Below are positions 2,630 through 26,477 of a DNA stretch of 33,128 nucleotides, one piece after another. This stretch comes from Rhodoferax sp. (GTDB lineage Bacteria > Pseudomonadota > Gammaproteobacteria > Burkholderiales > Burkholderiaceae_C): contig NZ_JAMPXE010000023.1 in assembly GCF_023701345.1 (NCBI RefSeq), positions 1 to 33,128 of the forward strand. The letters run 5' to 3'. The position numbers were made by a program, and so were the translations under genes. Position 1 is the first letter of the stretch. Each line of letters starts with the position of its first letter. Below the pieces are notes generated by a model. The model worked only from the letters and a program-made list of their open reading frames with translations. It was not told the origin of the DNA and made no database searches.

Positions 2630-3766
2630 ATGGACACCGCCCTGCAACACCTCACTGACCAAATTAACACCGCTGCGGCGCAGCGCACCCCCTTGCGCAT
2701 TCGCGGTGGCGGCAGCAAAGACTTCTACGGCGAAACGTTGCAAGGCGTACTGCTCGACACCACGGCTTACCGTGGCATTGTGAGTTACGAGCCCAGCGAA
2801 CTGGTGGTCACGGTGCGCGCCGGCACCCCGCTGGCCGAACTCGAAGGCGCCTTGGCTGAAAAAGGCCAGTGCCTGGCGTTCGAGCCGCCCCGCTTTGGCA
2901 GGGCCAACGGCACCTGCGGCGGCATGGTGGCGGCGGGCTTGAGCGGCCCGGCGCGGGCCAGCATGGGCGGCGTGCGTGACTATGTGCTGGGCGTGCAGTT
3001 CGTCAATGGCCGTGGCGAACACCTCACCTTTGGCGGCCAGGTCATGAAAAACGTGGCCGGTTATGACGTGTCACGGCTGATGGTGGGGGCCATGGGCACG
3101 CTGGGTCTGCTCACCGAGATCTCGCTCAAGGTGCTGCCGGTGGCACCGGCCGAGGCCACGCTGGTGTTTGAGCTCGACCAGGTCAACGCCCTGGCGCAAC
3201 TGCACCGCTGGGGTGCACAGCCGCTGCCGCTCAATGCCAGTTGCTGGGTGCGCGACGACACCGCCCCCAACACCCCCGAATTGTTGTTTGTGCGCTTGCG
3301 TGGTGCCGTGGCGGCAGTGGAGTCGGCCTGCACCAGGATGCTGGCCGACGTGCCCGGCAACCGCATGGACAACGCCCAGGCCGGGCCCGACTGGACCGCC
3401 TGCCGCGACCTGAAACTGCCTTTCTTTACGGCACCTGTCGCGCCCGCCGAGCCGCTGGCGCTGTGGCGCTTGAGCGTGCCGCAAACTGCGCCGGTGCTGG
3501 ACCTGCCCTGGCCCCAGTTGGTGGAGTGGCATGGCGGCCAGCGCTGGCTCTGGGCCCCGGCATCGGCGCGGGAACAGTTGCGCCAAGCCGTCGCCGCGGC
3601 AGGCGGTTCCGCCAGCGTCTTCATAGCTGCCAGCGACACCACAACGGGCGCTAAAAACTGCTTCAGTCCCTTGAGCCCCGCCATCGCGCAAATCCACCGC
3701 CGCCTCAAGGCCGAATTTGACCCGGCAGGCATCTTTAATCCGGGTCGCGTGTACGCCGGCATGTAA
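2630..3766 (+). CDS. glcE: Glycolate oxidase FAD-binding subunit GlcE
   Basis: The 378-residue protein fits GlcE, the second FAD-binding subunit of glycolate oxidase (GlcDEF), which oxidises glycolate to glyoxylate at the inner membrane. The FAD_binding_4 region is visible: RIRGGGSKDFYG near the N-terminus, EPSELVVTVRAGTPLAELE in the middle of the domain and NVAGYDVSRLMVGAMGTLG before the C-terminal half. It ends in the family-typical IFNPGRVYAGM. The ATG at 2630 begins a protein of normal GlcE length, and the next gene follows 12 bp after the stop. The partner GlcD is not adjacent: the upstream neighbour is the yqjK-like gene. Confidence 0.93.
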   Translation: MDTALQHLTDQINTAAAQRTPLRIRGGGSKDFYGETLQGVLLDTTAYRGIVSYEPSELVVTVRAGTPLAELEGALAEKGQCLAFEPPRFGRANGTCGGMVAAGLSGPARASMGGVRDYVLGVQFVNGRGEHLTFGGQVMKNVAGYDVSRLMVGAMGTLGLLTEISLKVLPVAPAEATLVFELDQVNALAQLHRWGAQPLPLNASCWVRDDTAPNTPELLFVRLRGAVAAVESACTRMLADVPGNRMDNAQAGPDWTACRDLKLPFFTAPVAPAEPLALWRLSVPQTAPVLDLPWPQLVEWHGGQRWLWAPASAREQLRQAVAAAGGSASVFIAASDTTTGAKNCFSPLSPAIAQIHRRLKAEFDPAGIFNPGRVYAGM

Positions 3767-3778
3767 AAACAAAAGCCT

Positions 3779-5014
3779 ATGCAAACTCAACTCAGCGCCC
3801 AATACCAGGGCACGCCCGATGGCCTGGCGGCCGAAGCCATTCTGCGCAAATGCGTGCACTGCGGTTTTTGCACCGCCACCTGCCCCACCTACCAGTTGCT
3901 CGGCGACGAGCTGGATGGCCCGCGCGGGCGCATTTACCTGATGAAACAGGTGCTCGAAGGCGCGGTGCCAACCCGCAAGACCCAAATGCACCTGGACCGC
4001 TGCCTGACCTGTCGCAACTGTGAAACCACCTGCCCCAGCGGTGTCCAATACGGCCATTTGCTTGACATTGGCCGCAAGCTGGTCGACGCCCAGGTACCGC
4101 GCCCGGCGGGCGAGCGCGCGCTGCGCTGGGCGCTCAAGGAAGGCCTGCCGTCACCCGCTTTTGGCCCGGCCATGGCCGTGGGCCAACTGGTGCGGTCGCT
4201 GCTGCCCAAGACGCTACAGAACAAGGTGCCGGCCAAACAGCACGCCGGCCTCACGCCCACACGCACGCTCAGCCGCAAGGTACTGGTGCTGGCCGGTTGC
4301 GTGCAACCCGCCATGAGCCCCAACATCAACAGCGCCACGGCCCGGGTCTTTGATGCCGCCGGCATCCAGTGCGTGGTGGCGCCCAAGGCGGGTTGTTGCG
4401 GCGCCGTCAAGTTTCATCTCAACGACCAGGAGGGTGGCATGGCGCAGATGCGCGCCAACATCGACGCCTGGTGGCCATCGATTGAAGCCGGCGTGGAGGG
4501 CATCGTCATCAACGCGTCGGGCTGCGGCGTCACCGTCAAGGACTACGGCCACATCCTGCGGGATGACCCCGCTTACGCCGCCAAGGCGCGGCGCGTGAGC
4601 GAACTCACCCAGGACGTCAGCGAATGGCTGCCCGAGCTGGTGGACAAACTCAAAAATCGGGTGGCAGGCAGCGCCAGCCGCATCGCCTTTCATCCACCCT
4701 GCTCGATGCAACACGGCATGCAATTGCGCGGCGGCGTCGAGAAATACATGGGCGAGTTGGGTTTCAACGTCAAGACCACCGGCTGCGAGGCCCACCTGTG
4801 CTGCGGCTCGGCGGGCACCTACAGCGTGCTCAACCCGACACTGTCTTACCAGCTAAGAGACCGCAAACTGGGCAAACTGGCCACCACCTTTGGCGACCAG
4901 GCGCCCGAGCAAATCGTGTCAGCCAACATCGGCTGCATCACGCACCTGCAAAGCGGCACCGACACGCCGGTGCGGCACTGGATTGAAGTGCTCGACGAAG
5001 CACTGCAAAAATAA
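3779..5014 (+). CDS. glcF: Glycolate oxidase iron-sulfur subunit GlcF
   Basis: The 411-residue protein has two N-terminal 4Fe-4S motifs, CVHCGFCTATCPTY and CLTCRNCETTCPSG, and two C-terminal CCG-type domains containing AGCCGAVKFH and HLCCGSAGTY. This is the architecture of GlcF, which passes electrons from the flavin subunits to the respiratory chain. Length is normal for the family. It lies 12 bp after glcE and is surely cotranscribed. The gene ends 8 bp from the stop codon of the convergent minus-strand gene with no obvious terminator between them. Confidence 0.95.
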   Translation: MQTQLSAQYQGTPDGLAAEAILRKCVHCGFCTATCPTYQLLGDELDGPRGRIYLMKQVLEGAVPTRKTQMHLDRCLTCRNCETTCPSGVQYGHLLDIGRKLVDAQVPRPAGERALRWALKEGLPSPAFGPAMAVGQLVRSLLPKTLQNKVPAKQHAGLTPTRTLSRKVLVLAGCVQPAMSPNINSATARVFDAAGIQCVVAPKAGCCGAVKFHLNDQEGGMAQMRANIDAWWPSIEAGVEGIVINASGCGVTVKDYGHILRDDPAYAAKARRVSELTQDVSEWLPELVDKLKNRVAGSASRIAFHPPCSMQHGMQLRGGVEKYMGELGFNVKTTGCEAHLCCGSAGTYSVLNPTLSYQLRDRKLGKLATTFGDQAPEQIVSANIGCITHLQSGTDTPVRHWIEVLDEALQK

Positions 5015-5021
5015 GCTGCAA

Positions 5022-5666
5022 TCACGCCCCGAGGCGCTGGCGCAACACGCGCACGGCACTGGCGGGTGTGCTCAGCACTGGCAGATCCAGCGCCTGGCGC
5101 ACCGCTGCTTCGGCCCGCGCCATGCTGAACTGGGCCAGTGCAATCACCTCACAGCCCTGTTGCTGCAGCCAGCGCGCGGCGTCGACCACCAAGGCATCGT
5201 GACCAGCGGTGTCGCCCTGGTTGAGTGCTTCCAGGGCGCCTTCGGCCAAGCGGGTCCGCAGCGCCATGCCAGGCGGGAACTCGGCCGGCATCGAGACCAA
5301 TGTCGGCGCAAATGAGGCAATCAGCCCGACGCGTTTGCCCGTTGCCACAGCCTCGGCCACCATGGCCTCGTTGGGCTTGAGTACCGGCATGTGCGGGCGC
5401 CGCGCGGCCACGACGTCAATACACGGCCCAAAGGCCGAGCAGGTGAACAGAACGGCCTGGGCGCCGGTGCCCTCGGCATAGGCTGCCAGCGCCTCGAAGC
5501 GCTGGTGCATGGCCGCATCGAGCCCGCGGCCACTGCGCGCCAGGTCGCTTGAGAGGCTGTCGTCAATCAGGTTCATGCGTTCACAGGCTGGCCAGGCGCG
5601 CGCCATCTCGGCGTTGATCGGCGCCACCGAGTGCGCCAGCGCATGGATCAGCGCGACACGGGTCAT
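5022..5666 (-). CDS. Asp/Glu racemase-fold protein with only one catalytic-type cysteine
   Basis: The 214-residue protein resembles the aspartate/glutamate/hydantoin racemase and arylmalonate decarboxylase superfamily. The N-terminal lobe has the nucleophile-type cysteine C76 in LFTCSAFGPC. In the C-terminal lobe, where two-base racemases carry the second cysteine (GCTxM-like), this protein reads ALAQFSMA, with Q179 in its place. It may therefore not be a conventional two-cysteine racemase. The start is the ATG at 5666, which overlaps the stop of the upstream permease gene (ATGA), indicating translational coupling to the TAXI transporter. Isomerase, decarboxylase or lyase activity on the transported substrate are all possible. 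Confidence 0.75.
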   Translation of the reverse strand: MTRVALIHALAHSVAPINAEMARAWPACERMNLIDDSLSSDLARSGRGLDAAMHQRFEALAAYAEGTGAQAVLFTCSAFGPCIDVVAARRPHMPVLKPNEAMVAEAVATGKRVGLIASFAPTLVSMPAEFPPGMALRTRLAEGALEALNQGDTAGHDALVVDAARWLQQQGCEVIALAQFSMARAEAAVRQALDLPVLSTPASAVRVLRQRLGA

Positions 5667-8245
5667 GGCTTGGTTTTGCGGGCACGGGCGCGCTGCAAGG
5701 CAATGACCAGCAGCAGCAAGGCCATGGCGGGCGGGAACATCCATTCCTTGGCGGGTCGATCGGCCGGTATTTCCGCCGAGACGATACGGAAGCCCTGCTC
5801 CATGCCGAGTTTTTCAGCGCGACTGCCAAAACGCACCTGCGTGATCAACAAGTCATCGCCCTGTGCCATCACATTGACACCGGCACTGGCAAAGCGCTCG
5901 CGCGCCGTGCCTTGGGGGCCCAGCGGCAGCAGCACCCCCTTGCGGATGTCCTTGGCGTCGATATTGGTGCCTTCAATCCAGATGCGCTTGCTGGCATTGG
6001 CAGGTTGCGCTTCAATCAACTGGCTGATTTGCGACGCCGGCACCTCGGTGTAGGGCGGATAAACCATGTCCCACCAGTAACCCGGACGGAACAGCGTGAA
6101 CGTGATCAACAGCAAGGCGATGGTTTCATACCAACGCGACTTGATCAAGAAATGGCCCTGTGTCGCCGCCGCAAACACCAGCATGGCCACGGTGGCGCTG
6201 AGCACCGTCAAAATCAGGTGGAACGGCCCGTCCACACCGATCATCAGCAACTGGGTATTGAAAATGAACAAAAAGGGCAGGATGGCGGTGCGCATGCTGT
6301 AGAAAAATGCCGTGATGCCGGCCTTGATCGGGTCGCAGCGCGCAATGGCTGCCGCAGCAAATGAGGCCAGACCCACCGGCGGCGTGACGTCGGCCATCAA
6401 GCCAAAGTAGAAGACGAACAGGTGCACCGCAATCAGCGGCACGATCAGGCCGCTTTGTGCACCCAGCTCGACCACCACCGGCGCCATCAGCGTGGACACC
6501 ACGATGTAGTTGGCCGTGGTCGGCAGGCCCATGCCCAAAATCAGGCTGATGACAGCCACCAGCACCAGCATCAGCATCAGGTTGCCGCCCGACAGCAGCT
6601 CGACAATCTCGGTCATGACCAGGCCAATGCCGGTCAACGACACCGTGCCGACAATGATGCCGGCCGCCGCCGTGGCCACACCAATGCCGATCATGTTGCG
6701 GGCCCCGATAGCCAGGCCGTCGATCAGGTCAAGCACCCCCTGGCGTGCCGCTTGGCCAAAATCGCTCCGGCCACGAAACCAGGAGATGATGGGTTTTTGC
6801 GTCAGCATGACAAAAATCATGAACATCGTGGCCCAGAAGGCCGACAGGCCCGGTGACATCTGCTCGACCATCAGGCACCAGATCAGCACCACCACGGCCA
6901 GCAGGTAATGCAGGCCCGATTTGACGGTGGGACCGGTTTCTGGCAGTTCGAACACGGGTGCATTCGGGTCATCGAGTTCCAGTTCGGGCTGCCGGGCGCC
7001 AAACCACAGCAAGCCGACATAGGCCGCCAGCAGTCCCACGCCGATTACCCAGACGGCCGAGTCACCCATCAGTGTCTTGATCCAGCCAATGCCCCAGTAG
7101 ACTGCGCCCGACAGCACGACAAAACCAGCCAGGGTCAGGCCCAATGACAGCAGGCGCGAGCCGGCCGAGCCGGTATTGCGCCGCGGCAATCCCACCATGT
7201 TGTTTTTAAGGGCCTCAATGTGGACGATGTAGAGCAAGGCAATGTAGGAAATGATGGCCGGCAAAAAGGCATGCTTCATCACCTCGATATATGGAATACC
7301 CACATATTCCACCATCAGGAAAGCAGCAGCGCCCATCACCGGCGGCATCAATTGGCCGTTGACCGAGCTCGACACCTCGACGGCCGCCGCCTGGTCAGGG
7401 CGGTAACCCACGCGCTTCATGAGCGGAATGGTGAAGGTGCCGGTGGTCACCACATTGGCAATCGACGAGCCCGAAATGATGCCGGTGGCCGCTGACGACA
7501 GCACCGCCGCCTTGGCCGGGCCACCCCGCATGTGGCCGAGCAGCGCAAAGGCCGACTTGATGAAATAGTTGCCGGCACCGGCCTTGTCCAGCAAGGAGCC
7601 AAACAGCACAAACAAGAAGATGAAGCTACTGGAAACACCCAGCGCCACGCCAAACACGCCCTCTGTGGTGAGCCACTGGTGGCTCATGGCTCGGCTCAGC
7701 GAAAAACCGCGGTGGGCAATCATGTCGGGCATGAAGGGGCCGCCAAAGGTATAACCCAGAAAAACCAGCGCCACAATCACCATCGGCAGGCCCAGCACCC
7801 GGCGCGTGGCCTCCAGCAGCAGCGCGATACCGACCAAACCGGTGTAAACGTCCATCGAGGTCGGTTGCCCCGGACGGGTCGCCAACTCACGGTAAAACAG
7901 GAACAGGTAGGCGGCACAAAAAGTGCCCACGATGGCAAAGATCCAGTCTGTCACCGGCACGCGGTCGCTTTGTGAGCGCTTGAAAGCCGGGTAAGACATG
8001 AAAGACAGGAACACCGCAAAGGACAGGTGGATGGCCCGCGTTTCGGTGTCGTTGAAGACCAGCACACCGGTACTGAACGGCAGCGGCGATGCGATCCATA
8101 ATTGAAACAAGGACCAGGCCAGCGCCACATAGAGTAAGAAACGCTTCATTGCCGGGCCGGGGTTGCGCGCACCGGTGTCGTTGTCGGCGACGAACTTCTG
8201 GACGTCAATCTCAGGCACCTTGTCCGTTGCGGTTGCTGTTGTCAT
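5663..8245 (-). CDS. TAXI-type TRAP transporter permease, fused 4TM/12TM
   Basis: This 860-residue protein is the fused small and large membrane subunit of a TAXI-subfamily TRAP transporter, importing organic or amino acids with a Na+ or H+ gradient. It has an N-terminal block of membrane helices (QM-like), then a DctM-like core with the signature GMGLPTTANYIVV. A C-terminal part with further helices and a soluble tail (after YPPYTEVPASQI) corresponds to DUF3394, common in TAXI permeases. The ATG at 8245 is preferred over an upstream in-frame TTG at 8284 because AGAGAG lies just upstream and the TTG falls beside the hairpin at 8283-8312. It is coupled by ATGA overlap to the racemase-fold gene. 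Confidence 0.93.
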   Translation of the reverse strand: MTTATATDKVPEIDVQKFVADNDTGARNPGPAMKRFLLYVALAWSLFQLWIASPLPFSTGVLVFNDTETRAIHLSFAVFLSFMSYPAFKRSQSDRVPVTDWIFAIVGTFCAAYLFLFYRELATRPGQPTSMDVYTGLVGIALLLEATRRVLGLPMVIVALVFLGYTFGGPFMPDMIAHRGFSLSRAMSHQWLTTEGVFGVALGVSSSFIFLFVLFGSLLDKAGAGNYFIKSAFALLGHMRGGPAKAAVLSSAATGIISGSSIANVVTTGTFTIPLMKRVGYRPDQAAAVEVSSSVNGQLMPPVMGAAAFLMVEYVGIPYIEVMKHAFLPAIISYIALLYIVHIEALKNNMVGLPRRNTGSAGSRLLSLGLTLAGFVVLSGAVYWGIGWIKTLMGDSAVWVIGVGLLAAYVGLLWFGARQPELELDDPNAPVFELPETGPTVKSGLHYLLAVVVLIWCLMVEQMSPGLSAFWATMFMIFVMLTQKPIISWFRGRSDFGQAARQGVLDLIDGLAIGARNMIGIGVATAAAGIIVGTVSLTGIGLVMTEIVELLSGGNLMLMLVLVAVISLILGMGLPTTANYIVVSTLMAPVVVELGAQSGLIVPLIAVHLFVFYFGLMADVTPPVGLASFAAAAIARCDPIKAGITAFFYSMRTAILPFLFIFNTQLLMIGVDGPFHLILTVLSATVAMLVFAAATQGHFLIKSRWYETIALLLITFTLFRPGYWWDMVYPPYTEVPASQISQLIEAQPANASKRIWIEGTNIDAKDIRKGVLLPLGPQGTARERFASAGVNVMAQGDDLLITQVRFGSRAEKLGMEQGFRIVSAEIPADRPAKEWMFPPAMALLLLVIALQRARARKTKP

Positions 8246-8282
8246 ACGGATCTCTCTAATAATTAGTGATGTTTTTGTCAAC

Positions 8283-8312
8283 AAAAAAGCTCTGACGCGT
8301 CAGAGCTTTTTT
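8283..8312 (-). terminator. Perfect hairpin between TAXI binding-protein and permease genes
   Basis: A perfect 30-bp palindrome with A6 on one side and T6 on the other (core AGCTCTGACG-CGTCAGAGCT). On the minus strand it begins 37 nt after the binding-protein stop and ends 38 nt before the permease start. It has the form of a bidirectional intrinsic terminator. In this position it would act as a partial terminator or RNA-stabilising stem, giving more binding protein than permease. Confidence 0.8.
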
Positions 8313-8348
8313 TGCGGTTTCAGCCTGTGGCAGCTGGACGTGATCAGA

Positions 8349-9323
8349 TTACATCCAGCCTTTTTCCTTGTAGTACTTGACAGCGCCGGGGTGCAGCGGT
8401 GCCGACAGGCCATCCTTGATCATGTTCTTGGGATTCAGGCCGATGAAGGCGGGGTGCAATTTCTTGAACTCGTCAAAATTCTCGAACACCGCCTTGACCA
8501 ACTCGTACACGGTGGCATCAGGTACCTTGGCCGAGCTCACAAACGAGGCCAGCACACCATAGGTGCGGGTCGGGTTCGGATGGCCCGCATACAAGCCGCC
8601 AGGAATGTCCACCGCAGCGTAATAGCTGTTGGCCTTGACCAGTTTGTCCACGGCCGGGCCGGTGATCGGCACCAGCTTGGCGCCGCAGGTGGTGATCGGG
8701 TCCTGAATGTTGGCGCTCGGGTGACCCACGCCGTAGAAGAAGGCATCGATCTTGTTGTCACACAGGGCTGCACCGTGCTCGTCGGCCTTGAGTTCGGCAG
8801 CCAGACCAAAGTCTGAAGTCTTCCAGTTCATACCAGTCAACAATTCGTCCATGGCGGCGCGGCTGCCCGAGCCGGGGTTACCGACGTTCATGCGTTTGCC
8901 CTTGAGGTCTTCAAACTTGGCCACGTTGGCTTCCTTGCGGGCCAGCACCGTGAAAGGCTCGGGGTGAATCGAGAACACGGCACGCAAGTCGGTGTGCTTG
9001 CCGTCTTTCTCGAACTGCTTGGCGCCGTTGAAGGCGTTGTACTGCACATCGGACTGGGACACGCCAAAGTCAAGCTCGCCCGCCTTGATGGTGTTGATGT
9101 TCACCACTGAACCACCGGTGGACTCCACCGAGCAACGGTAGCCATGCTTGGCGCGGTCCTTGTTGACCAGGCGGCAAATGGCGCCACCAGCCGCGTAGTA
9201 CACACCCGTGACACCCCCGGTGCCAATGGTCATGAATTTTTGCTGCGCCTGCACGCTGCTCACGGGGGCCAGCATGGCGGCAGCAGCGGCAACGGCGCTG
9301 ACATAGAAGGACAATTTCTTCAT
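8349..9323 (-). CDS. TAXI family TRAP transporter solute-binding protein
   Basis: A 324-residue periplasmic binding protein of the TAXI (TRAP-associated extracytoplasmic immunogenic) family. It has a Sec signal peptide of about 27 residues ([20 protein letters not shown]..., cleavage near VQA). The family start [18 protein letters not shown] and the conserved [13 protein letters not shown] follow. The ATG at 9323 has a GGAG box 6 nt upstream and gives the normal length. Related proteins bind glutamate, glutamine or other carboxylates; the ligand here is not certain. A 12-bp palindrome (TCTGTTTACAGA, 9366-9377) sits 42 bp upstream. The permease follows after an intergenic hairpin. Confidence 0.93.
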
Positions 9324-9365
9324 GGGATCTCCAGTATTAAAAATTTCGACTGACTTAAAAAACGA

Positions 9366-9377
9366 TCTGTTTACAGA
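9366..9377. promoter_or_regulatory. Short palindrome upstream of the TAXI binding-protein gene
   Basis: TCTGTTTACAGA is a perfect 12-bp palindrome in the AT-rich 146-bp gap between the aminotransferase stop and the binding-protein start. It may be an operator for an internal promoter. It is unlike the inverted repeat upstream of the rpiR gene, so the same regulator need not act here. Confidence 0.3.
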
Positions 9378-9469
9378 ATGTGGCATCTTAGATCAAAGAT
9401 AGACCCCCCTTCGGTTGAATAAGTAAATAGTTACCCTGTTTTTTTATGCAATTTGCGCATATTGCCGCA

Positions 9470-10843
9470 TCAGGCCGGCATAGCGGCATCGACGGCCCGG
9501 GCCAGGCGCTCCACAATCTGCACCAGTTCGTCTTCGCTGGCAATGAAGGGCGGGGCCAGCAAAATGTGGTCGCCGCAACGCCCGTCCACCGTGCCGCCCA
9601 TCGGGTAAACCATCAGGCCCAGCGCCATCGCCTCACGCTTGATGCGGGCATGTAATTTAAGCGCCGGGTCAAACCACTGGCGCGACGCCCGGTCCGCCAC
9701 CAGCTCCAGCCCCCAGAACAAGCCGCGGCCGCGGATGTCGCCCACATGGGGGTGATCGGCAAACGTCTGTTTGAGCAAGCCAAGCAGGGTCTGGCCCCGT
9801 GCCCGCACCTGTGCCACCAGGCCGTCGCGCTGAATCACCCGCTGCACCGCGAGGGCGGCAGCACATGCCACTGCATGGCCGAGGTAGGTATGGCCGTGCT
9901 GGAACATGCCGCTGCCTGCCCTGAATACTTCCACCAGCTTCTTCTGCGCCAGCACCGCGCCAATCGGCTGGTAGCCGCCACCCAGGCCCTTGGCGATGGC
10001 CAGCAGGTCAGGCACCACGCCCTCCTGCTCGCAGGCGTGCAGCGAGCCGGTGCGGCCCATGCCGCACATCACCTCGTCCAGAATCAGCAAAATGCCGTGG
10101 CGGTCGCAGAGCTCCCGGATGGCCTTGAAATAGCCCGGCACGGCGGTCAGCACGCCGGCCGTGGCGCCACCCACGGTTTCGGCCACAAAGGCCATGACGT
10201 TTTCCGGCCCAAGGCGCTCAAAGGTCTGCTCAAGCTCAGCCACCAGCCGCTGGCCATAGGCTTCTGGCGTTTCATCGGGCGCGCGGTCGCGGTATTCGTA
10301 GCAGGGCGCCACATGGGCGACGTCGATCAGCAGCGGCTGAAACTGGGCGCGCCGCCATGCGTTGCCCCCCACGGCCAGCGCGCCCAGGGTGTTGCCATGG
10401 TAGCTTTGACGACGCGCGACAAAATGGCGCCGTTGCGGCTGGCCGATCTCGACGAAATACTGCCGCGCCATTTTGAGCGCGGCCTCCATCGCTTCCGAGC
10501 CGCCACTGACAAAGTAGGCATGGCTCATGCCGGCCGGTGCCGACGCGATCAGCACGTCGGCCAGTTCCTCGGCCACTTCGGTGGTGAAAAAGCTGGTGTG
10601 GGCATAGGCCAGCCGGTCAATCTGGGCGTGCATGGCCGCCAGCACCTCGGGGTGACCATGGCCCAGGCAGGACACGGCGGCACCGCCGCAGGCATCCAGG
10701 TAAGTTTTGCCGCTCGCATCAAGCAGGGTGATGCCCCGGCCTGACACCGCCAGCGGCAATTCGTGCTGCAACTGGCGGTGGAACACATGGGTGCCCTCCG
10801 GGCTGATCACGGTTGACTGGGGTGCGGGGTGGGATGGCTGCAT
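9470..10843 (-). CDS. Class III PLP-dependent aminotransferase
   Basis: The 457-residue protein is a class III (omega-amino acid/ornithine-type) aminotransferase. Visible landmarks are the cofactor-phosphate-binding SGGSEAMEAALKMAR (113-127), the pyridine-N aspartate D256 in LILDEVMCGMGRTG, and the Schiff-base lysine K285 in AIAKGLGGGYQPIGA. It transfers an amino group from an amine, omega-amino acid or beta-amino acid to a keto acid; the substrate cannot be read from sequence. The ATG at 10843 has AGGA 9 nt upstream. It lies 41 bp after the rpiR gene and upstream of the TAXI transporter on the same strand, so it probably acts on the transported compound. Confidence 0.92.
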   Translation of the reverse strand: MQPSHPAPQSTVISPEGTHVFHRQLQHELPLAVSGRGITLLDASGKTYLDACGGAAVSCLGHGHPEVLAAMHAQIDRLAYAHTSFFTTEVAEELADVLIASAPAGMSHAYFVSGGSEAMEAALKMARQYFVEIGQPQRRHFVARRQSYHGNTLGALAVGGNAWRRAQFQPLLIDVAHVAPCYEYRDRAPDETPEAYGQRLVAELEQTFERLGPENVMAFVAETVGGATAGVLTAVPGYFKAIRELCDRHGILLILDEVMCGMGRTGSLHACEQEGVVPDLLAIAKGLGGGYQPIGAVLAQKKLVEVFRAGSGMFQHGHTYLGHAVACAAALAVQRVIQRDGLVAQVRARGQTLLGLLKQTFADHPHVGDIRGRGLFWGLELVADRASRQWFDPALKLHARIKREAMALGLMVYPMGGTVDGRCGDHILLAPPFIASEDELVQIVERLARAVDAAMPA

Positions 10844-19478: not shown

Positions 19479-19538
19479 AACAATAGCGGCCTATTTCACG
19501 ATGCCAGATTATTCAAGCAATTGGCCAGAAACGCAGCC

Positions 19539-20405
19539 ATGACACAACGTCCGATTGAGCCAACCGGTCATAGCAGGGTAGCGGGGGGGCCAGCCATTTT
19601 TCCCGACCCCAATACCTTGCCGATTGCAAAGATCGACGAGTTTTGTGATGATCCGGATTTTGTGACTTCCTTGGCGCGTGGACTCGCGGTGTTGCTCGCG
19701 CTCTCTGACAAAAAACGGCACCTGTCGATTGCGCAAGTCAGTTACTGCACCGGTATCCCGCGCGCTGCCGTGCGAAGAAGCCTGCTTACTTTGGCCAAGC
19801 TCGGTTTTGCCGCCTGCGATGACACACACCAATTTTATTTGCGCCCGAGGGTGTTGTCATTCAGCCATGCCTACCTATCGGCGTCGCCGATTTCAATGCT
19901 GGCGCAACCGGTGCTGGATCGCCTCAGCGAATCCATTGGCGAGGCGTGTTCGCTGGCGGTGATGGATGGCGACGATATCGTTTACCTGTGCCGATCCACC
20001 TCCTCTCGCATCATGTCCCCGATCTTGAACGTCGGCCGACGCCAGCCGGCCTATTGCACGTCGCTTGGGAACATTTTGCTGTCTTTGTTGCCGCAGCAGG
20101 AATTGGACGCTTACCTGAACCGGGTGCACATTCTTCCGTTCACACCTTACGCCATAGACACGGTTGCGAAACTGCGCGTGCTGCTGGATAAAGTGCGCGA
20201 AGTTGGCTATTCGTTCATGAGTCAACAAACCGTACTGCTGCTGTGCTCCCTGGCGGTCCCGGTGTCTGACACCAGCGGCAACCATGTTGCGGCAATCAAC
20301 GTGATTCGGCAAGGCCAGTTGTTGGAGGTCGATGAAATGACTGCGCGTTTTCTCGTGCCCTTGCAGAATGCCGCGAGGGAACTGGGTGCCTTGTTGACCC
20401 CTTGA
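19539..20405 (+). CDS. IclR family transcriptional regulator
   Basis: The 288-residue protein has an N-terminal winged helix (about 35-100, with FVTSLARGLAVLLALSDKKR and LSIAQVSYCTGIPRAAVRRS). A C-terminal effector domain contains LGNILLS and VREVGYSFMSQQ. The sequence resembles the PcaR/PobR/CatR branch that controls aromatic or hydroaromatic catabolism, where the N-terminal extension before the HTH is usual. The ATG at 19539 is used; a TTG at 19521 is possible. It converges on the GntR-type gene, 36 bp away. It is probably a second regulator of the cluster. Confidence 0.9.
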   Translation: MTQRPIEPTGHSRVAGGPAIFPDPNTLPIAKIDEFCDDPDFVTSLARGLAVLLALSDKKRHLSIAQVSYCTGIPRAAVRRSLLTLAKLGFAACDDTHQFYLRPRVLSFSHAYLSASPISMLAQPVLDRLSESIGEACSLAVMDGDDIVYLCRSTSSRIMSPILNVGRRQPAYCTSLGNILLSLLPQQELDAYLNRVHILPFTPYAIDTVAKLRVLLDKVREVGYSFMSQQTVLLLCSLAVPVSDTSGNHVAAINVIRQGQLLEVDEMTARFLVPLQNAARELGALLTP

Positions 20406-20441: not shown

Positions 20442-21155
20442 TCAGCTGATGGATTTCTTCTGGTGGCGATTTGCTGCGCGATAACCAACGCCCATGCGGG
20501 AGATATGCTCGTCGAGAATGGTTTCGGCGCGATCCAGCTTTCCCGCGGACAAGGCGGCGATGATCAGGCGATGTTCTGAAATGGATTTGTTGAGCAGGGT
20601 GTCCAGGCCAACCAGGTTATGCGTTCGCAGTGTCGCCACGCGCCCTGAAACAAGTTTGTAGGCCTCAATCAAGTACGGGTTGTTGCAGTGGTTCATGATG
20701 GCCTGATGGAAATCGGTATCGGCATGGGAGATGGCGAGACGGTCGCCGGTTTGCCTCGCTAGTTCCATGGCATCACTTGCCACGCGCATTTGCTGCAGCG
20801 CGTCCTCACGCCGGTACTCAAAACACAAACGCAGCGCGGTCACCTCCATGACCCGGCGAAATTCGCACAAGGCACCCACGTTTTCCTCTGTCGGCATGAA
20901 GACAAAGCTGCCAGACTGGGGCCGGATATCTATCAAGCCCTGAAGTTGCAATGCATTGAAGGCTTCGCGCACAGGCGTCCGGCTGACACCCAGCGCAGCC
21001 GCCAGCTTGAGCTCCGACAGCCCTTCGCCGAGCTTGAATTCGCCATTCTGGATGGCCTCGCGAATTTGCTCGGTGACACGCGCGGTGAGGGACGTCGCCA
21101 CGCCAGTAGCTTGCGCTGGCGTTTTCTTCACGGTTTTGGCAGGACTTGCAATCAT
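20442..21155 (-). CDS. GntR family regulator, FadR/FCD subfamily
   Basis: The 237-residue protein has an N-terminal winged helix (about 23-88, with LKLAAALGVSRTPVREAFNAL). A C-terminal FCD domain has the metal-site pattern D146xxxH150 (HADTDFHQAI), H195 (SEHRLIIAAL) and H217 (DEHISR), so it likely binds a metal-coordinated organic acid. The ATG at 21155 has GGAG 9 nt upstream and is preferred to a TTG at 21173. It lies 53 bp downstream of the flavoenzyme gene on the same strand and is probably cotranscribed. The GGTACC boxes in the divergent region 23147-23564 are candidate operators. Confidence 0.92.
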   Translation of the reverse strand: MIASPAKTVKKTPAQATGVATSLTARVTEQIREAIQNGEFKLGEGLSELKLAAALGVSRTPVREAFNALQLQGLIDIRPQSGSFVFMPTEENVGALCEFRRVMEVTALRLCFEYRREDALQQMRVASDAMELARQTGDRLAISHADTDFHQAIMNHCNNPYLIEAYKLVSGRVATLRTHNLVGLDTLLNKSISEHRLIIAALSAGKLDRAETILDEHISRMGVGYRAANRHQKKSIS

Positions 21156-21208
21156 TTCGACTCCGTTTGGCAACCTCTCGCGTGCACGAACAATTCCAGC
21201 GAAGGATA

Positions 21209-23146
21209 CTAGAGTCTGTGGCCCAACGCCGCCGCGTCATGGATGGCCTCAAGCGCCGTTCTGGGCTGCACGCAATCACCAAGCAGGAAAATCTCCGGCA
21301 TACCGTCGCGACTGTAAAGCTCGTCCGCAACCTTGGTCACAGGCAACAGTGTGCGCGTCGGAACCACGATATCGATCGCTGTAAGTGTCGTGAGCTCCTG
21401 ACCGTTCCACAACACGGCTTCGCGCTCCCCCAGCGCTTCGACTGTCGTCCCCAGATGCACTGTCACATTGGCGCGTTCGCGCAGCGCAGCGACCTGGAAG
21501 CGACGCGAGCGGCTGGCAATGTCTGTCGCAAGTTCCCTGGCCACATCGACCAAGACGACTTCGATTCCTTTTTCAGCAAGGACGCGCGCAACACCCACGC
21601 CCCGTATGCCGCCGCCGATGACCAGCGCGCGACCGATGCCACCGACCGGACGCCGCAGAATCTCGTAGGGATCGACCACCGGGCTGTCCATGATGCCGGG
21701 AATGGCCGGCAGGCCCGGCGCCGAACCGGTGGCGACGATGATGAGATCGGGACGTTCCGCCAAAGCAATCTCTGCTGTCGCATCAACCCCGAGTTCAAGG
21801 CGCACACCGGCTCGCATGGCTTCGTTGACCAGCCACGGAAGGTGTCCTGCCAGTTCTTCGCGTCCCGGCACCAGGCGGCTCAGCAGCAGCTGCCCGCCAG
21901 GCTCATGGTCGCGCTCGAAGACGGTCACCTGGTGCCCGCGCAGCGCGAGCACGCGCGCGCTCTCCAGCCCGGCGGGACCGCCACCAATGACAACGATCCG
22001 TTTCTTGGCCGCTGCCGGCCTGATCGCATATTCGCGCTCCCGCCCGGTGGTGGTGTTGACCAGGCAGACGATGGGCAAACCGCGCGCATGCATGTCGCTG
22101 CAACCCTGATTGCACGCGATGCAGGTGCAGATATCCGCCAGGCGGCCGGCGCGCGCCTTGTTCGGAAACTCGGGGTCGGCGTGCAGGGCGCGGCCCAGCG
22201 TCACAAAGTCGGAGACACCCGACTCCAACAGGTGTTCGGCTACGCTGGGATCGGTGATGCGCCCGGAAACGCTCACCGGCACATCGACATGCTTGCGTAC
22301 TTCTTCAGCCAGCGGCGCAAGGACGCCCTGCTTCATTTCCATCGGCTGGGTGATCCACCAGTTGGTTTCGTACATGCCTGCTGAAACGTCAATCAGGTTC
22401 ACACCCGCTGCCACCAGATGCGGCGCAATGGCACAGACATCGGCCAGCGTCAGGCCATTGTTCTGATGCTCGTCGCCACTGATGCGGAAGACCACCGGCA
22501 TGTCTTTGTCGATCGAGCGGCGGATCGCGGCGATGACTTCCAGCGGAAACCGCATCCGGCCTGCCAGGTCGCCGCCATACCCGTCGTCCCGCTTGTTGCA
22601 GTAAGGTGACATGAACTGACTGAGCAGGTAGCCATGGGCGCCATGAATGCCGATGAAATCGCAACCCGCCTCCGCGGCCCGGCGCGCCGCCGAACCAAAA
22701 CGTTCAACGAGTTCGGCGATCGATGCGTGATCCAGCGGACGCGGCGACCAGCCGCCGGCGCCCTCGTAGGGAACTGCCGAGGGCGCGCGCGATTCCAGGC
22801 CGCTGACCTCCGGATGCACGACCCGCCCGCCAAAGTTGAGCTCAGGACCGACCCGGCCGCCGTGCTTGTGCACCGCAGCGACCAAGCGCTCCAGCTGCGG
22901 GATCAGGTCATCGTCGTACAGGCCCATCTGGAATTCACGCCCCTTGCCGCGCGGATCGACATAGGTTGCCTCGGTGTACATCATGCCGACACCACCGCGT
23001 GCCCGGGCTTCCATATAGTCAATGTAGCGCTGCGTGATGCGCCCCTCGGCGGTGCAGTAGTTACGCTCCATCGGCGAACCGATGATCCGGTTTCTGACTT
23101 CCATCGAACCGACTAGTCCTGGCTGGAAGAGTTTCGGGAATCTCAT
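21209..23146 (-). CDS. OYE-family FMN/4Fe-4S/FAD oxidoreductase (2,4-dienoyl-CoA reductase-like)
   Basis: The 645-residue protein has the architecture of FadH, trimethylamine dehydrogenase and 2-enoate reductase. An N-terminal Old Yellow Enzyme TIM barrel (1-335) carries FIGIHGAHGYLLSQFMSP with Y173 and GYGGDLAGRMRF. A 4Fe-4S motif follows (C342, C345, C349 and C361 in CTCIACNQGC...C). Then come an FAD-binding Rossmann fold (VIGGGPAGLESARVLALRG, from 387) and an NAD(P) fold with IGGGIRGVGVARVLAEKG. It reduces or oxidises an activated double bond or C-N/C-O bond of an unknown substrate. The ATG at 23146 has AGGAG at ideal spacing. It diverges from the TRAP operon and probably acts on the same compound. 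Confidence 0.92.
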   Translation of the reverse strand: MRFPKLFQPGLVGSMEVRNRIIGSPMERNYCTAEGRITQRYIDYMEARARGGVGMMYTEATYVDPRGKGREFQMGLYDDDLIPQLERLVAAVHKHGGRVGPELNFGGRVVHPEVSGLESRAPSAVPYEGAGGWSPRPLDHASIAELVERFGSAARRAAEAGCDFIGIHGAHGYLLSQFMSPYCNKRDDGYGGDLAGRMRFPLEVIAAIRRSIDKDMPVVFRISGDEHQNNGLTLADVCAIAPHLVAAGVNLIDVSAGMYETNWWITQPMEMKQGVLAPLAEEVRKHVDVPVSVSGRITDPSVAEHLLESGVSDFVTLGRALHADPEFPNKARAGRLADICTCIACNQGCSDMHARGLPIVCLVNTTTGREREYAIRPAAAKKRIVVIGGGPAGLESARVLALRGHQVTVFERDHEPGGQLLLSRLVPGREELAGHLPWLVNEAMRAGVRLELGVDATAEIALAERPDLIIVATGSAPGLPAIPGIMDSPVVDPYEILRRPVGGIGRALVIGGGIRGVGVARVLAEKGIEVVLVDVARELATDIASRSRRFQVAALRERANVTVHLGTTVEALGEREAVLWNGQELTTLTAIDIVVPTRTLLPVTKVADELYSRDGMPEIFLLGDCVQPRTALEAIHDAAALGHRL

Positions 23147-23166
23147 CTTGACTTTCTCCTTCGGTA

Positions 23167-23184
23167 CCTGCGAACCAGCGCAGG
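23167..23184 (-). promoter_or_regulatory. Leader hairpin before the flavoenzyme gene
   Basis: On the minus strand CCTGCG-CTGGTT-CGCAGG forms a perfect 6-bp stem that begins 38 nt before the ATG and ends 7 nt before AGGAG. The near-identical hairpin stands at the same distance before the TRAP binding-protein gene (23527-23544), suggesting conserved RNA-level control or shared ancestry. Confidence 0.55.
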
Positions 23185-23248
23185 AAATAAAGCCACATGA
23201 CGTCAATGCCATCTGGTGTGAATCAAACAATCTTTGTTTTGTGCAGAT

Positions 23249-23260
23249 TGGTACCTCAGT
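23249..23260 (-). promoter_or_regulatory. Putative operator box, leftward copy
   Basis: On the minus strand this reads ACTGAGGTACCA, identical to the rightward copy at 23450-23461, and lies 102 bp before the flavoenzyme ATG. TATAGA overlaps its upstream edge as a possible -10. The GGTACC core also recurs at 23163-23168. The FCD-type GntR protein encoded nearby or the IclR protein may bind here. Confidence 0.5.
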
Positions 23261-23294
23261 CTATAAGATCAACCCCTGTCTGCGACTCGTTAAC

Positions 23295-23315
23295 GGGCGC
23301 CTGTCGCCCCTTTTT
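23295..23315. repeat. GC-rich hairpin with T-tract, left copy of inner repeat
   Basis: GGGCGCCTGTCGCCC (23295-23309) is nearly the reverse complement of the right copy at 23401-23415 (one mismatch). Each copy also folds on itself (GGGCG/CGCCC), and on the inward-facing strand a T-tract follows, as in a weak terminator. Role unclear. Confidence 0.5.
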
Positions 23316-23400
23316 ACCCGCGCCATTGGGCTTCGATAAAGAGGCAAAAATATCAATAAAAATAAGGGTTTACCCGAACAAAACCAGTTTTTGCAAAACG

Positions 23401-23415
23401 GGGCGGCAGGCGCCC
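23401..23415. repeat. GC-rich repeat, right copy of inner repeat
   Basis: GGGCGGCAGGCGCCC pairs with the left copy at 23295-23309 with one mismatch. Both lie at equal distance from the axis near 23355, within the larger inverted duplication. Confidence 0.5.
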
Positions 23416-23449
23416 AGTAATACAGGGCAAGCCGGATGTGCACCGATAC

Positions 23450-23461
23450 ACTGAGGTACCA
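23450..23461 (+). promoter_or_regulatory. Putative operator box, rightward copy
   Basis: ACTGAGGTACCA on the plus strand, an exact inverted copy of 23249-23260, 103 bp before the TRAP binding-protein ATG. GATACA overlaps its upstream edge where the leftward copy has TATAGA. Confidence 0.5.
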
Positions 23462-23526
23462 GACGCGCCATACGAGACCCTCAGCGGGCGAACGGCGCGG
23501 TCCCGGTGTTGTCCCGTTTTTTAACA

Positions 23527-23544
23527 CCTGCGCTGGATTGCAGG
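23527..23544 (+). promoter_or_regulatory. Leader hairpin before the TRAP binding-protein gene
   Basis: CCTGC-GCTGGATT-GCAGG forms a 5-bp stem 38 nt before the ATG and 6 nt before AGGAG. It matches 16 of 18 positions of the leader hairpin of the divergent flavoenzyme gene. Confidence 0.55.
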
Positions 23545-23564
23545 ACCTGAAGGAGAAACTCGCA

Positions 23565-24554
23565 ATGATGAACCTTAACCGTCGCTCGGTACTCAAGGGC
23601 GCTGCCTCAATCGCAGTCGCCGCAGCAAGCACCATGAGCCTGGCCCAATCAAAAATTCAACTGATTTACTCGGATACGATTCCGGAGCAGGATCGCCGCG
23701 CCAAGCTGCTGATGCAGGAGTTTGGACCGGGCATTGGTCCTGAGTTTGATCTCAAGGCCTATTGGAGCGCGAGCCTGTTCAAACAAGGCACCGAGCTTCT
23801 CGCCATGCAGCGCGGCAACCTCGATATGGGAAACCTGTCGGTTGCAGATTTCCAACGCCAGATTCCGGCCTGGGGCATCGTCGGCGCACCTTACATTTTC
23901 CGTGACATCGAACACATGCAAAAAGTGTTCGCGAGCGACGTCGGCCAGCAACTGTTCAAGCTGGCCGAAGACCAGCTTGGTATCAAGGTGCTGAACGTGA
24001 ACTACATCGGCATGCGGCACGTCAACCTCAAACCGAAGAAGAAGGTCATGACGCCGGCCGATCTGGCAGGCATCAAGTTGCGCATGCCTGCAGGCGAGGG
24101 CTGGCAGTTCGTCGGTACCGCGCTTGGCGCAAATCCGACGCCGATCGCCTACACCGAGGTCTACACCGCCCTGCAGACCGGCGCCATCGACGCGCAGGAC
24201 AACCCCCTGCCCAACAACAAGGACATGAAGTTTCACGAGGTGACCACGCAGATTGTGCTGACCGGTCACATGGTGAACTTCAACCTGCTTTCGATCCGCA
24301 AGTCGAAGTGGGACACGCTCACGGCAGCGCAGAAGGAACGGGTGCAGAAAGCAGCGAACGCCTTCGGAACGGGCGTGACCGCAGCGTCGAAAAAAGAAGA
24401 GGAAGATCTCATTGCATTCTTCAAAGGACAGGGGCTTGACGTCTATACGCCCAATGTCAAAGCCTTCCGCGACTACGCGCTGGAGACGACCCGGAAGTCG
24501 AAGTACGTCAACGAATGGATCCCGGGCATGCTGGAGCGCATCAACGCGCTTTAA
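23565..24554 (+). CDS. TRAP transporter solute-binding protein, DctP family
   Basis: The 329-residue protein is a DctP-type periplasmic binding protein. The N-terminus MMNLNRRSVLKGAASIAVAA has a twin-arginine motif followed by a hydrophobic stretch and a likely cleavage after SLAQ, so Tat export is possible. Family features include the region GMRHVNLKPKKKVMTPADLA, GIKLRMPAG, and ALQTGAIDAQDNPLPNNK near the ligand pocket. The ATG at 23565 is 9 nt after AGGAG; the next codon is also ATG. It heads the DctP-Q-M-SDR-SDR-isomerase-EthD operon and probably binds an organic acid, but the ligand is unknown. Confidence 0.94.
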   Translation: MMNLNRRSVLKGAASIAVAAASTMSLAQSKIQLIYSDTIPEQDRRAKLLMQEFGPGIGPEFDLKAYWSASLFKQGTELLAMQRGNLDMGNLSVADFQRQIPAWGIVGAPYIFRDIEHMQKVFASDVGQQLFKLAEDQLGIKVLNVNYIGMRHVNLKPKKKVMTPADLAGIKLRMPAGEGWQFVGTALGANPTPIAYTEVYTALQTGAIDAQDNPLPNNKDMKFHEVTTQIVLTGHMVNFNLLSIRKSKWDTLTAAQKERVQKAANAFGTGVTAASKKEEEDLIAFFKGQGLDVYTPNVKAFRDYALETTRKSKYVNEWIPGMLERINAL

Positions 24555-24672: not shown

Positions 24673-25176
24673 ATGCCAAAAATATGGCGCTGGTTAAACC
24701 GTCGCGCGGAGAACGTGTCGGCACTGCTGATGGCAGTCCTGTTTGTCGCGTTCCTCATCCAGGTCGTCGCACGGTATGTATTCAATAGCCCGGTGAGTTG
24801 GGCACACGAACTCTCCGTCATCGCAGGCATCTGGATCATCCTTTGGGGCACCGGCTTCGTCACCCGCGAATCGGACAATATCCGCTTCGACATGATCTAT
24901 GGCAGCGTCTCGCCAAACACCCGTCGCATTTTCGACATGGTGGCAAGCCTCGCACTGATCATCATCTTCGTCGTCGGCTTTCCATCTGCTTGGAGCTATG
25001 TGCAGTTCATGAAAGTCGAGTCCACGGCCGCCCTGCACATTCGTTACGACCTGGTGTTCTCGGTCTACATCCTGTTTGCCGTCGCGATGATTGTGCGGCA
25101 CCTGTTGATACTCCGGGATGCACTCACCGGCCATGACCAGCCAGCGCCGTCAGAGACCCGGTTGGAGACTGACTGA
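24673..25176 (+). CDS. TRAP transporter small permease, DctQ type
   Basis: A 167-residue protein with four predicted membrane helices (about 15-35, 48-65, 90-110 and 125-145). The DctQ-typical QVVARYVFNSPVSWAHELS spans the end of helix 1 and the loop after it. It forms the membrane complex with the following DctM protein. GAGGAG lies just upstream of the ATG. Its stop overlaps the start of the large permease (ATGA), so the two are translationally coupled. Confidence 0.93.
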   Translation: MPKIWRWLNRRAENVSALLMAVLFVAFLIQVVARYVFNSPVSWAHELSVIAGIWIILWGTGFVTRESDNIRFDMIYGSVSPNTRRIFDMVASLALIIIFVVGFPSAWSYVQFMKVESTAALHIRYDLVFSVYILFAVAMIVRHLLILRDALTGHDQPAPSETRLETD

Positions 25177-26477
25177 TGAACCTCTTTAGCCCCTTCGCCA
25201 TCACGATTTGGCTCATCATTGGGCTGAGCCTCTTTGGCCTGCCGATCGGCCTGTCGATGATTTCCGCCTCGATCGTCTACCTGCTGATCATGAAGCAGGA
25301 CATGGGTATCGCCGCAGAACAGCTCCTGCAGGGACTTTTTGCCAGTTACACGCTGCTCGCGATTCCGTTGTTCATCTTTGCCGCCGAGCTGATGAACGTC
25401 GGCTCGTTGAGCGAGCGCTTGCTCAAGTTCTGCGACGCGCTGGTCGGCCGCTTTCGCGGCGGACTCGGACACGTCAACATCGTGGCCAATGTGATTCTGT
25501 CGGGCATGTCGGGCTCGGCCGTCGCGGACGCGGCGGGCCTGGGCCGGATCATCATCAACATGATGACGCGCGATGGCAAGTACACGCCGAGTTACGCGGC
25601 GGCCATCACCGCGGCCGCCGCGACGATCGGCCCCATCATTCCGCCCTCGATTCCGCTGGTTCTCTATGCGCTGGTGTCCGATGCGTCAGTGGGCTACCTG
25701 TTCCTCGGCGGCATTTTGCCAGGGCTCGTGATGGGCGCCGTGCTGATGGCCATGAACGCGGTCCTCGCCCGCGTGCATAACTTCCCGGTCGAGCAAGCAG
25801 TGCCGGTGCGCGACTTGCCAAAAATCACGCTGAAGGCATTCCCTGCCCTGATGATGCCGGTGGTACTGCTCGGCGGCATCTACGGCGGCGTGATGACGCC
25901 CACCGAGGCGGCCGCGCTTGCCGCGCTCTATGCCTACATCATCTCCCTGGTGGTCTACCGGTCAGTTTCGTTGCGCCAGACCTACGACTGCCTGCTGTCG
26001 AGCGCACGCTCGACTGCCGCGGTCGGGATGCTGATTGCTGGCGCGCTGGTATTCAATTATGTGGTGACGCGCGAGGATCTGCCGAACTCGCTGAGCCTGC
26101 TGCTCGCCAGCTACCACCTCACGGACGTTGGCTTTCTGCTGGCAGTCAATGTCATTTTGCTGATTCTGGGCTGTCTGCTCGATGCCAGCACGGTGTTGCT
26201 GGTGATCGTGCCGATCCTGATTCCTGCCGCCAGGGCGCTGGGCATCGACATGGTTCACTTCGGCTTGGTGGTCGTGGTGAACCTGATGATCGGACTCATC
26301 ACACCGCCTTACGGGCTGCTGCTCTTCGTCGTGTCAAATATCACGAAAGCTCCCTTGCGCCGGATCGTGAGCGACGCTGTGCCGTTCATCATCGCCCTGG
26401 TGATAGCGCTGGCGATCATTACTTTCATTCCGCAAGTGGTGCTCTGGCTGCCGCGCGTATTTGGCTACAAAGGATAA
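25176..26477 (+). CDS. TRAP transporter large permease, DctM type
   Basis: The 433-residue protein is a full-length DctM subunit with about a dozen membrane helices. It contains the family motifs LLAIPLFIFAAELMNVG, SGMSGSAVADAAGLG, AAAATIGPIIPPSIPLVLYA and GGVMTPTEAAALAALYA. It carries out Na+- or H+-coupled transport of the ligand delivered by the DctP-type protein. The ATG overlaps the stop codon of the small permease. The first short-chain dehydrogenase gene starts 21 bp after its stop, consistent with one operon for import and catabolism. Confidence 0.95.
   Translation: MNLFSPFAITIWLIIGLSLFGLPIGLSMISASIVYLLIMKQDMGIAAEQLLQGLFASYTLLAIPLFIFAAELMNVGSLSERLLKFCDALVGRFRGGLGHVNIVANVILSGMSGSAVADAAGLGRIIINMMTRDGKYTPSYAAAITAAAATIGPIIPPSIPLVLYALVSDASVGYLFLGGILPGLVMGAVLMAMNAVLARVHNFPVEQAVPVRDLPKITLKAFPALMMPVVLLGGIYGGVMTPTEAAALAALYAYIISLVVYRSVSLRQTYDCLLSSARSTAAVGMLIAGALVFNYVVTREDLPNSLSLLLASYHLTDVGFLLAVNVILLILGCLLDASTVLLVIVPILIPAARALGIDMVHFGLVVVVNLMIGLITPPYGLLLFVVSNITKAPLRRIVSDAVPFIIALVIALAIITFIPQVVLWLPRVFGYKG

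Follow-up and report, generated by a model that had tools for sequence, protein, structure and literature searches.

In FadR-subfamily divergons that include the regulator gene, 100 cases with two operator sites and 96 with a single site are counted in the part of PMC4494728 available to us. According to the same excerpt, separate double sites each serve their own operon, the distance between the sites grows with the length of the gap, and the operator consists of TKGT and ACMA half-sites, usually with 2-3 nt between GT and AC. A second set of related systems comprises inverted repeats whose arms become alike through template switching, as described in the accessible sections of PMC7202029 and PMC8604942. 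The first-pass annotation of the DNA analysed here had assumed that divergent operons usually share one operator; by the above counts, limited to that portion of PMC4494728, two sites are about as common as one in GntR-family divergons, and the assumption offers no strong contrast.

The locus under study lies in a Rhodoferax sp. stretch of 33,128 nt (the window), in which a gene for an OYE-type flavoenzyme and the TRAP gene dctP point apart from each other across a gap of 418 nt (23147-23564). The relevant features are as follows.

19521-20405: IclR gene near the gap in the window
20442..21173, minus strand: gene for a GntR-family regulator (FCD domain), next downstream of the OYE gene; start codon uncertain
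21209..23146, minus strand: OYE/FadH-type flavoenzyme gene, 645 aa, with Oxidored_FMN and Pyr_redox_2 domains; below NCBIfam cut-offs
23150..23191, minus strand: OYE-side leader with Shine-Dalgarno, a mirror copy of the dctP leader, 79% complementary
23192..23248, minus strand: OYE-side stretch from leader to box, unmirrored (z -1.6 against its dctP-side counterpart)
23249..23260, minus strand: ACTGAGGTACCA, operator-like box of the OYE side; distance to the OYE start codon 102 nt
23290..23315, minus strand: OYE-side upstream GC-rich block GGGGCGACAGGCGCCC, with a palindromic GGGCG-N5-CGCCC core
23316..23394, no strand: spacer round the axis (about 23355)
23395..23420, plus strand: dctP-side upstream GC-rich block GGGGCGGCAGGCGCCC, from repeat finding and pattern search
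23450..23461, plus strand: ACTGAGGTACCA, operator-like box of the dctP side; distance to the dctP start codon 103 nt
23462..23519, plus strand: dctP-side stretch from box to leader (z 7.1 against relative L036)
23520..23561, plus strand: dctP-side leader with Shine-Dalgarno, similar to the L036 dctP leader
23565..24554, plus strand: dctP, TRAP solute-binding protein gene
24673..26477, plus strand: dctQ and dctM, TRAP permease genes

Mirror symmetry of the gap

The mirror symmetry of the gap is real. Repeat finding recovered three nested inverted repeats with a common axis at 23355-23355.5, namely the leader arms (23150-23191/23520-23561; 42 nt, 79%), the box arms (23249-23264/23446-23461; 16 nt, 94%) and the upstream arms (23290-23315/23395-23420; 26 nt, 85%), together with five more pairs in the gap that are shorter or off-axis. 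The first-pass annotation had placed an exactly inverted box at 23450-23461 (plus) and 23249-23260 (minus), 103 and 102 nt from the two start codons, and had reported 29 identical positions in the last 38 nt before each ATG; both observations are correct. When the two halves were aligned, 121 of 216 columns agreed (59.9% without gaps). The likeness is unevenly spread: the last 45 nt before the ATGs are strongly alike (z 11.5-11.7, the latter from 500 shuffles) and the segments upstream of the box are alike (z 4.1, 500 shuffles), while the 57 and 58 nt between box and leader are not (z -1.6, 500 shuffles). Therefore, the description of the "whole gap" as near-symmetric about 23355 is right for the three co-axial repeats and too strong for the roughly 57 nt on each side that are unmirrored, and the phrase "fully duplicated control region" has to be given up. 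The inner 15-bp repeat does lie on the shared axis at the coordinates reported, but it is itself a palindrome by eye (GGGCG-N5-CGCCC), so that its inverted orientation says little.

The symmetry does not arise by chance. Half-against-half alignment scored 134 locally (shuffles 64.4 +/- 7.0) and 126 globally (42.1 +/- 9.9), and none of 1000 dinucleotide shuffles was as high in either comparison; the shuffled-sequence check proposed with the first-pass annotation thus fails to reproduce the symmetry. After removal of the last 40 nt the score was 85 (52.5 +/- 6.4), with 0/1000 as high locally and globally. With the box dropped, none of 1444 real GC-matched segments reached the score of the halves, nor did any of 247 in the reciprocal comparison. 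When the box and the last 25 nt were both dropped, the facing half did not rank in the top seven among 22,804 sliding windows, so that a good part of the symmetry signal comes from leader and box. Folded as a single strand, the gap reaches z -6.7 against 100 shuffles, as expected of a quasi-palindrome. A recent assembly fold-back was ruled out, the arms differing at about 40% of ungapped columns.

The gap is also exceptional among the divergent gaps examined in its genome. It was the most symmetric of 82 such gaps (120-700 nt, simple ORF rule), with z 10.7 against 2.7 for the runner-up; the sample comprised the window and a further 788,471 bases of the 3.42-Mb genome, in 60 stretches that were not drawn at random. 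Sixteen divergent gaps from the loci of other genomes gave z 1.2 at most. Zero-mismatch patterns of the box, the upstream block and the leader motif had two matches each, genome-wide only in this gap, in a genome about 91% complete. At up to two mismatches the leader pattern had 31 and the upstream pattern 36 genome matches, and the reversed patterns 2 and 6.

Pairs of ACTGGRGTACCAG elsewhere in the genome were considered and set aside, as they look like a dispersed palindromic repeat and not like the box of the gap. A dispersed palindromic repeat round CTCATACTGGRGTACCAGAAATCG occurs at L056 2422-2583, L057 5955-6145, L058 4820-5003, L061 4035-4047 and L063 130-142 (own-genome contigs C17, C136, C218, C36 and C181, respectively), with facing pairs about 150-180 bp apart in three places. 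In appearance it resembles a REP/REPIN-type element; the likeness of its core to the box is probably a coincidence.

Relatives of the locus and the direction of copying

Twelve OYE homologues turned up when one genome per species was scanned. In five of them (L035, L036, L037, L038 and L040) OYE is followed by a gntR homologue and both are divergent from dctP. Identity between the nearest DctP and that of the window is 88% in L036, 82% in L040 and 49-51% in L035, L037 and L038, so that closely related DctP is found in this divergent layout in two relatives. All six divergent OYE-gntR/TRAP loci, window included, have two boxes in the gap at 0-1 mismatch. These are mirrored and face outwards in the window, L036 and L040, and run the same way in L035, L037 and L038. 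The exact pattern ACTRARGTACCA has 10 matches in the six genomes, 9 of them in this gap; the sole exact match outside a divergent gap is G490:C313:1345-1356. The longer the gap, the farther apart the boxes lie (r 0.90, p 0.015, six related loci, with an L035 gap length of 319), and the trend holds without L038, which is closely similar to L037 (r 0.89, p 0.043).

Beyond the boxes, likeness is confined to fewer loci. With the box kept, whole halves are alike in L036 (z 3.2) and L040 (z 3.6) and unlike in L035, L037 and L038 (z -1.5, -1.0 and -0.8). Mirrored leaders occur in one of the six loci, the window; the five relatives give z -1.6 to 1.2, and neither leader nor middle is mirrored in L036 or L040. 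The symmetry that the first-pass annotation had proposed to look for in homologous clusters is therefore found in part: outer parts are unrelated in L036 and L040 and halves are wholly unlike in L035, L037 and L038, so that the full mirror is specific to one lineage. The pair of mirrored boxes probably predates it, because that pair is present in L036 and L040, whose leaders are unmirrored.

In the remaining seven OYE loci (L039, L041-L046) OYE is not divergent from dctP, and they were left out of the arm comparisons; at up to one mismatch they contain one box-like match, at L043 4295-4307, about 3.7 kb from OYE. In L039 a two-mismatch box lies at 7961-7973, about 28 nt before the OYE start, with OYE divergent from an SDR gene; a GntR homologue was not found in the fetched L039 stretch. 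L071 (G542:C9:47277-49211) is an OYE homologue with one in-frame TAG. Searches of the order for further OYE homologues gave 1/399, the window's own, and those round four relatives (8/249, 3/297, 8/299 and 8/299) returned only loci of the 12-homologue set. For dctP, 37 of 89 genomes of the genus match at E 1e-60 (own included); own gene aside, none exceeds 49% identity, and thus there is no clear orthologue among them. DNA-level comparison with 100 near genomes, own included, gave three further matches of 26-34 nt, which were taken as chance, and a plasmid search gave two Rhodococcus proteins at 39%, which were rejected.

The comparison with L036 points to a polarity from dctP to OYE. With the box dropped, the OYE half of the window scores 86 against the dctP half of L036, a value reached by 1 of 4204 GC-matched segments, and 47 against the OYE half of L036, reached by 96% of 2309; the two dctP halves score 99 (0/4204 as high). 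Similarly, the window OYE leader resembles the L036 dctP leader (0/500 shuffles as high), as opposed to the L036 OYE leader (174/500). On the dctP side, window and L036 are alike in the middle (z 7.1) and in the leader (z 4.4). Upstream of the box the dctP sides of window and L036 are unlike (z -1.1), and the window OYE side is weakly like L036 dctP (z between 1.9 and 4.4, according to where the segment is cut). In the scan of 22,804 windows, in which GC content was left unmatched, the seven best partners of the window OYE half did not include L036 dctP. Comparison with L040 gives a marginal signal or none, with 4.9% of segments as high for the two dctP halves, 12.7% for window OYE and L040 dctP, and 28.7% for the two OYE halves. 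From box to ATG the OYE side measures 102 nt in the window, 150 in L036 and 142 in L040, and the dctP side varies likewise (103, 108 and 167). The OYE-side spacing of the window (102) thus fits the dctP side of the window (103) or L036 (108), not the OYE side of L036 or L040.

Taken together, these comparisons give moderate support to a leader mirror that arose in the window lineage, among the six loci, by copying from dctP to OYE; for direction and timing the support is moderate because the relatives are few. The earlier proposal that one promoter plus leader was duplicated in inverted orientation survives as the best reading, given the single axis, the 102/103 spacing and the L036-dctP-like OYE leader, and does not extend to the full region. 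Since the middle is unmirrored despite an L036-like dctP middle, a single full-length copy would require later loss on one side.

The box, its promoters and a candidate regulator

The GntR/FCD protein is the likely binder of both boxes, judging from gene content, the co-occurrence of gntR and box, and the usual mode of the family. The IclR protein is a less likely candidate, because no homologue was found in the fetched stretches of L035, L036, L038 and L040; L037 has a 25% match. The complete FadR-type operator consensus was not found in the box: CTGGTACCTCAG has TGGT, and its second half is TCAG, not ACMA.

In L036 and L040, by eye, TCAACT leads straight into the dctP-side box and is preceded at 17 nt by TTGACA, so that box and transcription start probably overlap. 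A clear TTGACA is missing from the window, and a simple scan passed no sigma-70 promoter in the window, L036 or L040. The upstream GC-rich block may be a regulator site or a weak terminator-like hairpin. On the plus strand, the left inner block (23295-23315) plus CTTTTT scores as a weak intrinsic terminator-like hairpin towards the axis; the terminator scan found two such sites against 0.7 expected by shuffles. The right inner block has a shorter T run and no terminator score. Together, the two inner blocks might shield each promoter from transcription that the other directs upstream.

RNA structure in the leaders received no support (z -0.49/-0.29 for short and -0.81/0.28 for longer leaders). 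Five weak Rfam matches, to three microRNA models of inverted-repeat shape and two sRNAs, were far below gathering scores and were read as chance products of the symmetry. Looping between boxes was also discarded, as the 19.1, 12.5, 19.3, 8.3, 7.4 and 8.5 helical turns between them keep no constant phase. If both boxes are read by one regulator, TRAP import and flavoenzyme would be under identical control and co-expressed.

Origin of the mirror and comparison with known systems

We consider it fairly probable that the gap is a two-operator divergon in which a later, lineage-specific inverted copy of the dctP-side half replaced the OYE-side half, and in which the middle then diverged. Each divergent promoter would have its own box ACTGAGGTACCA at or just after the -10 region, with OYE-gntR transcribed leftwards and dctPQM plus further genes rightwards. 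The GntR/FCD protein would bind both boxes and repress both operons until its ligand is present, a small molecule that is plausibly the TRAP substrate or its product. This two-operator layout would precede the full mirror. In the window lineage, the dctP-side half (upstream block, promoter, box and leader) would have been copied inverted over the OYE-side half, probably by template switching or conversion seeded by boxes that were already inverted; of the copied half, upstream block, box and leader would have been retained, whereas the middle of 57 nt would have drifted or been replaced. In this account the duplication event, its direction and its timing, as well as GntR binding, repression and co-expression, are inferred from sequence comparison.

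Convergence without any duplication is unlikely. Here, one regulator and one upstream factor would need sites at fixed distances, and the leaders would share a translation element. Several observations suit it: the middle is unmirrored, the inner block is palindromic and hence the same in both directions, the leader word has its 31 genome matches at up to two mismatches, and in L036 and L040 most of the mirroring outside the box is due to the core promoter, with z falling from 5.0 and 4.8 to 2.3 and 2.2 without TTGACA and the last 7 nt. However, the leader match (29/38; z 11.7 over 45 nt) extends well past the Shine-Dalgarno. Such a shared element would also have to be reconciled with the absence of the leader mirror from the five other divergent loci (z -1.6 to 1.2) and with leaders that fold no better than shuffles (z -0.49, -0.29), and equal spacing to both ATGs is left unexplained.

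Repeated homogenisation, in which conversion or template switching keeps the arms alike in each lineage rather than by one event, we regard as improbable. Within the window, L036 and L040 the two 60-nt stretches upstream of the boxes match each other (z 5.9, 5.0 and 4.8) and the OYE arms are unlike between loci (z -0.1, 0.3 and 1.3), as concerted evolution would predict, and, according to the introduction of PMC8604942, both long and short inverted repeats are reported to homogenise. On the other hand, removal of TTGACA and the last 7 nt leaves the likeness strong in the window alone (z 5.2) and lowers L036 and L040 to z 2.3 and 2.2, values equalled by 13 and 14 of 500 shuffles; before this removal L036 and L040 resemble each other in their dctP arms (z 5.5), and the cases described in the available part of PMC8604942 have spacers of at most 70 bp, compared with arms 79-328 nt apart here. 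Delivery of both promoters by a mobile element with long terminal inverted repeats would account for long inverted arms round a short spacer, but is very improbable: no second copy was found in the roughly 91% complete genome at E 0.001, the zero-mismatch upstream block was found only here in a search of the genome and of 141 loci, and L036, which lacks the full mirror, shares the dctP half (middle z 7.1, leader z 4.4).

If copying of the dctP-side half is the correct reading, a gene beside a regulated operon would gain the same regulation, translation leader included, in one step. The two halves would also provide an internal footprint, in which the conserved upstream block, box and leader are probably what matters. 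A broader proposition, that inverted operators seed the copying of an entire control half (upstream site through Shine-Dalgarno) onto the facing gene, is rather doubtful, and we offer it tentatively; under it, transport and catabolism would be coupled by homogenisation, and not by a common operator or operon. No description of a copied control half appeared among the literature titles and abstract openings listed, which cover few subscription papers and are weak evidence of absence.

The relative L041 shows another arrangement of the same genes. Its homologues of IclR, TRAP, SDR, OYE and GntR lie in a one-strand row at 3190-10667, apparently as a single operon, and a palindrome TTGGAGGACCAA with two mismatches to the box consensus stands before dctP at about 4007-4018. 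L041 resembles the window in that TRAP, SDR, OYE and GntR homologues occur together, and differs in that the genes are in a same-strand row and no box was found at up to one mismatch. The mirrored promoters of the window would be another route to the coupling seen in the single-operon form of L041.

Among quasi-palindromes, the locus is like the products of template switching and homogenisation in having an imperfect inverted repeat, one arm of which may have been copied from the other (PMC7202029 and PMC8604942, as far as the accessible sections go). The short spacer of a quasi-palindrome template-switch product is lacking here, where 79-328 nt lie between the arms, and, unlike the cases in the available part of PMC8604942 (short arms, spacers of at most 70 bp), the arms span about 200 nt each and include the leader. 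The closest described systems are the GntR-family double-site divergons. As in the excerpt of PMC4494728, there are two sites per gap, each near its own operon, and the inter-site distance rises with gap length here too. Unlike in those divergons, as that excerpt presents them, the upstream block and leader of the window are also mirrored, and the box fits TKGT/ACMA on one half. The old two-operator layout is thus already known for GntR-family divergons, and a copied control half on top of it would be an unusual but understandable variation.
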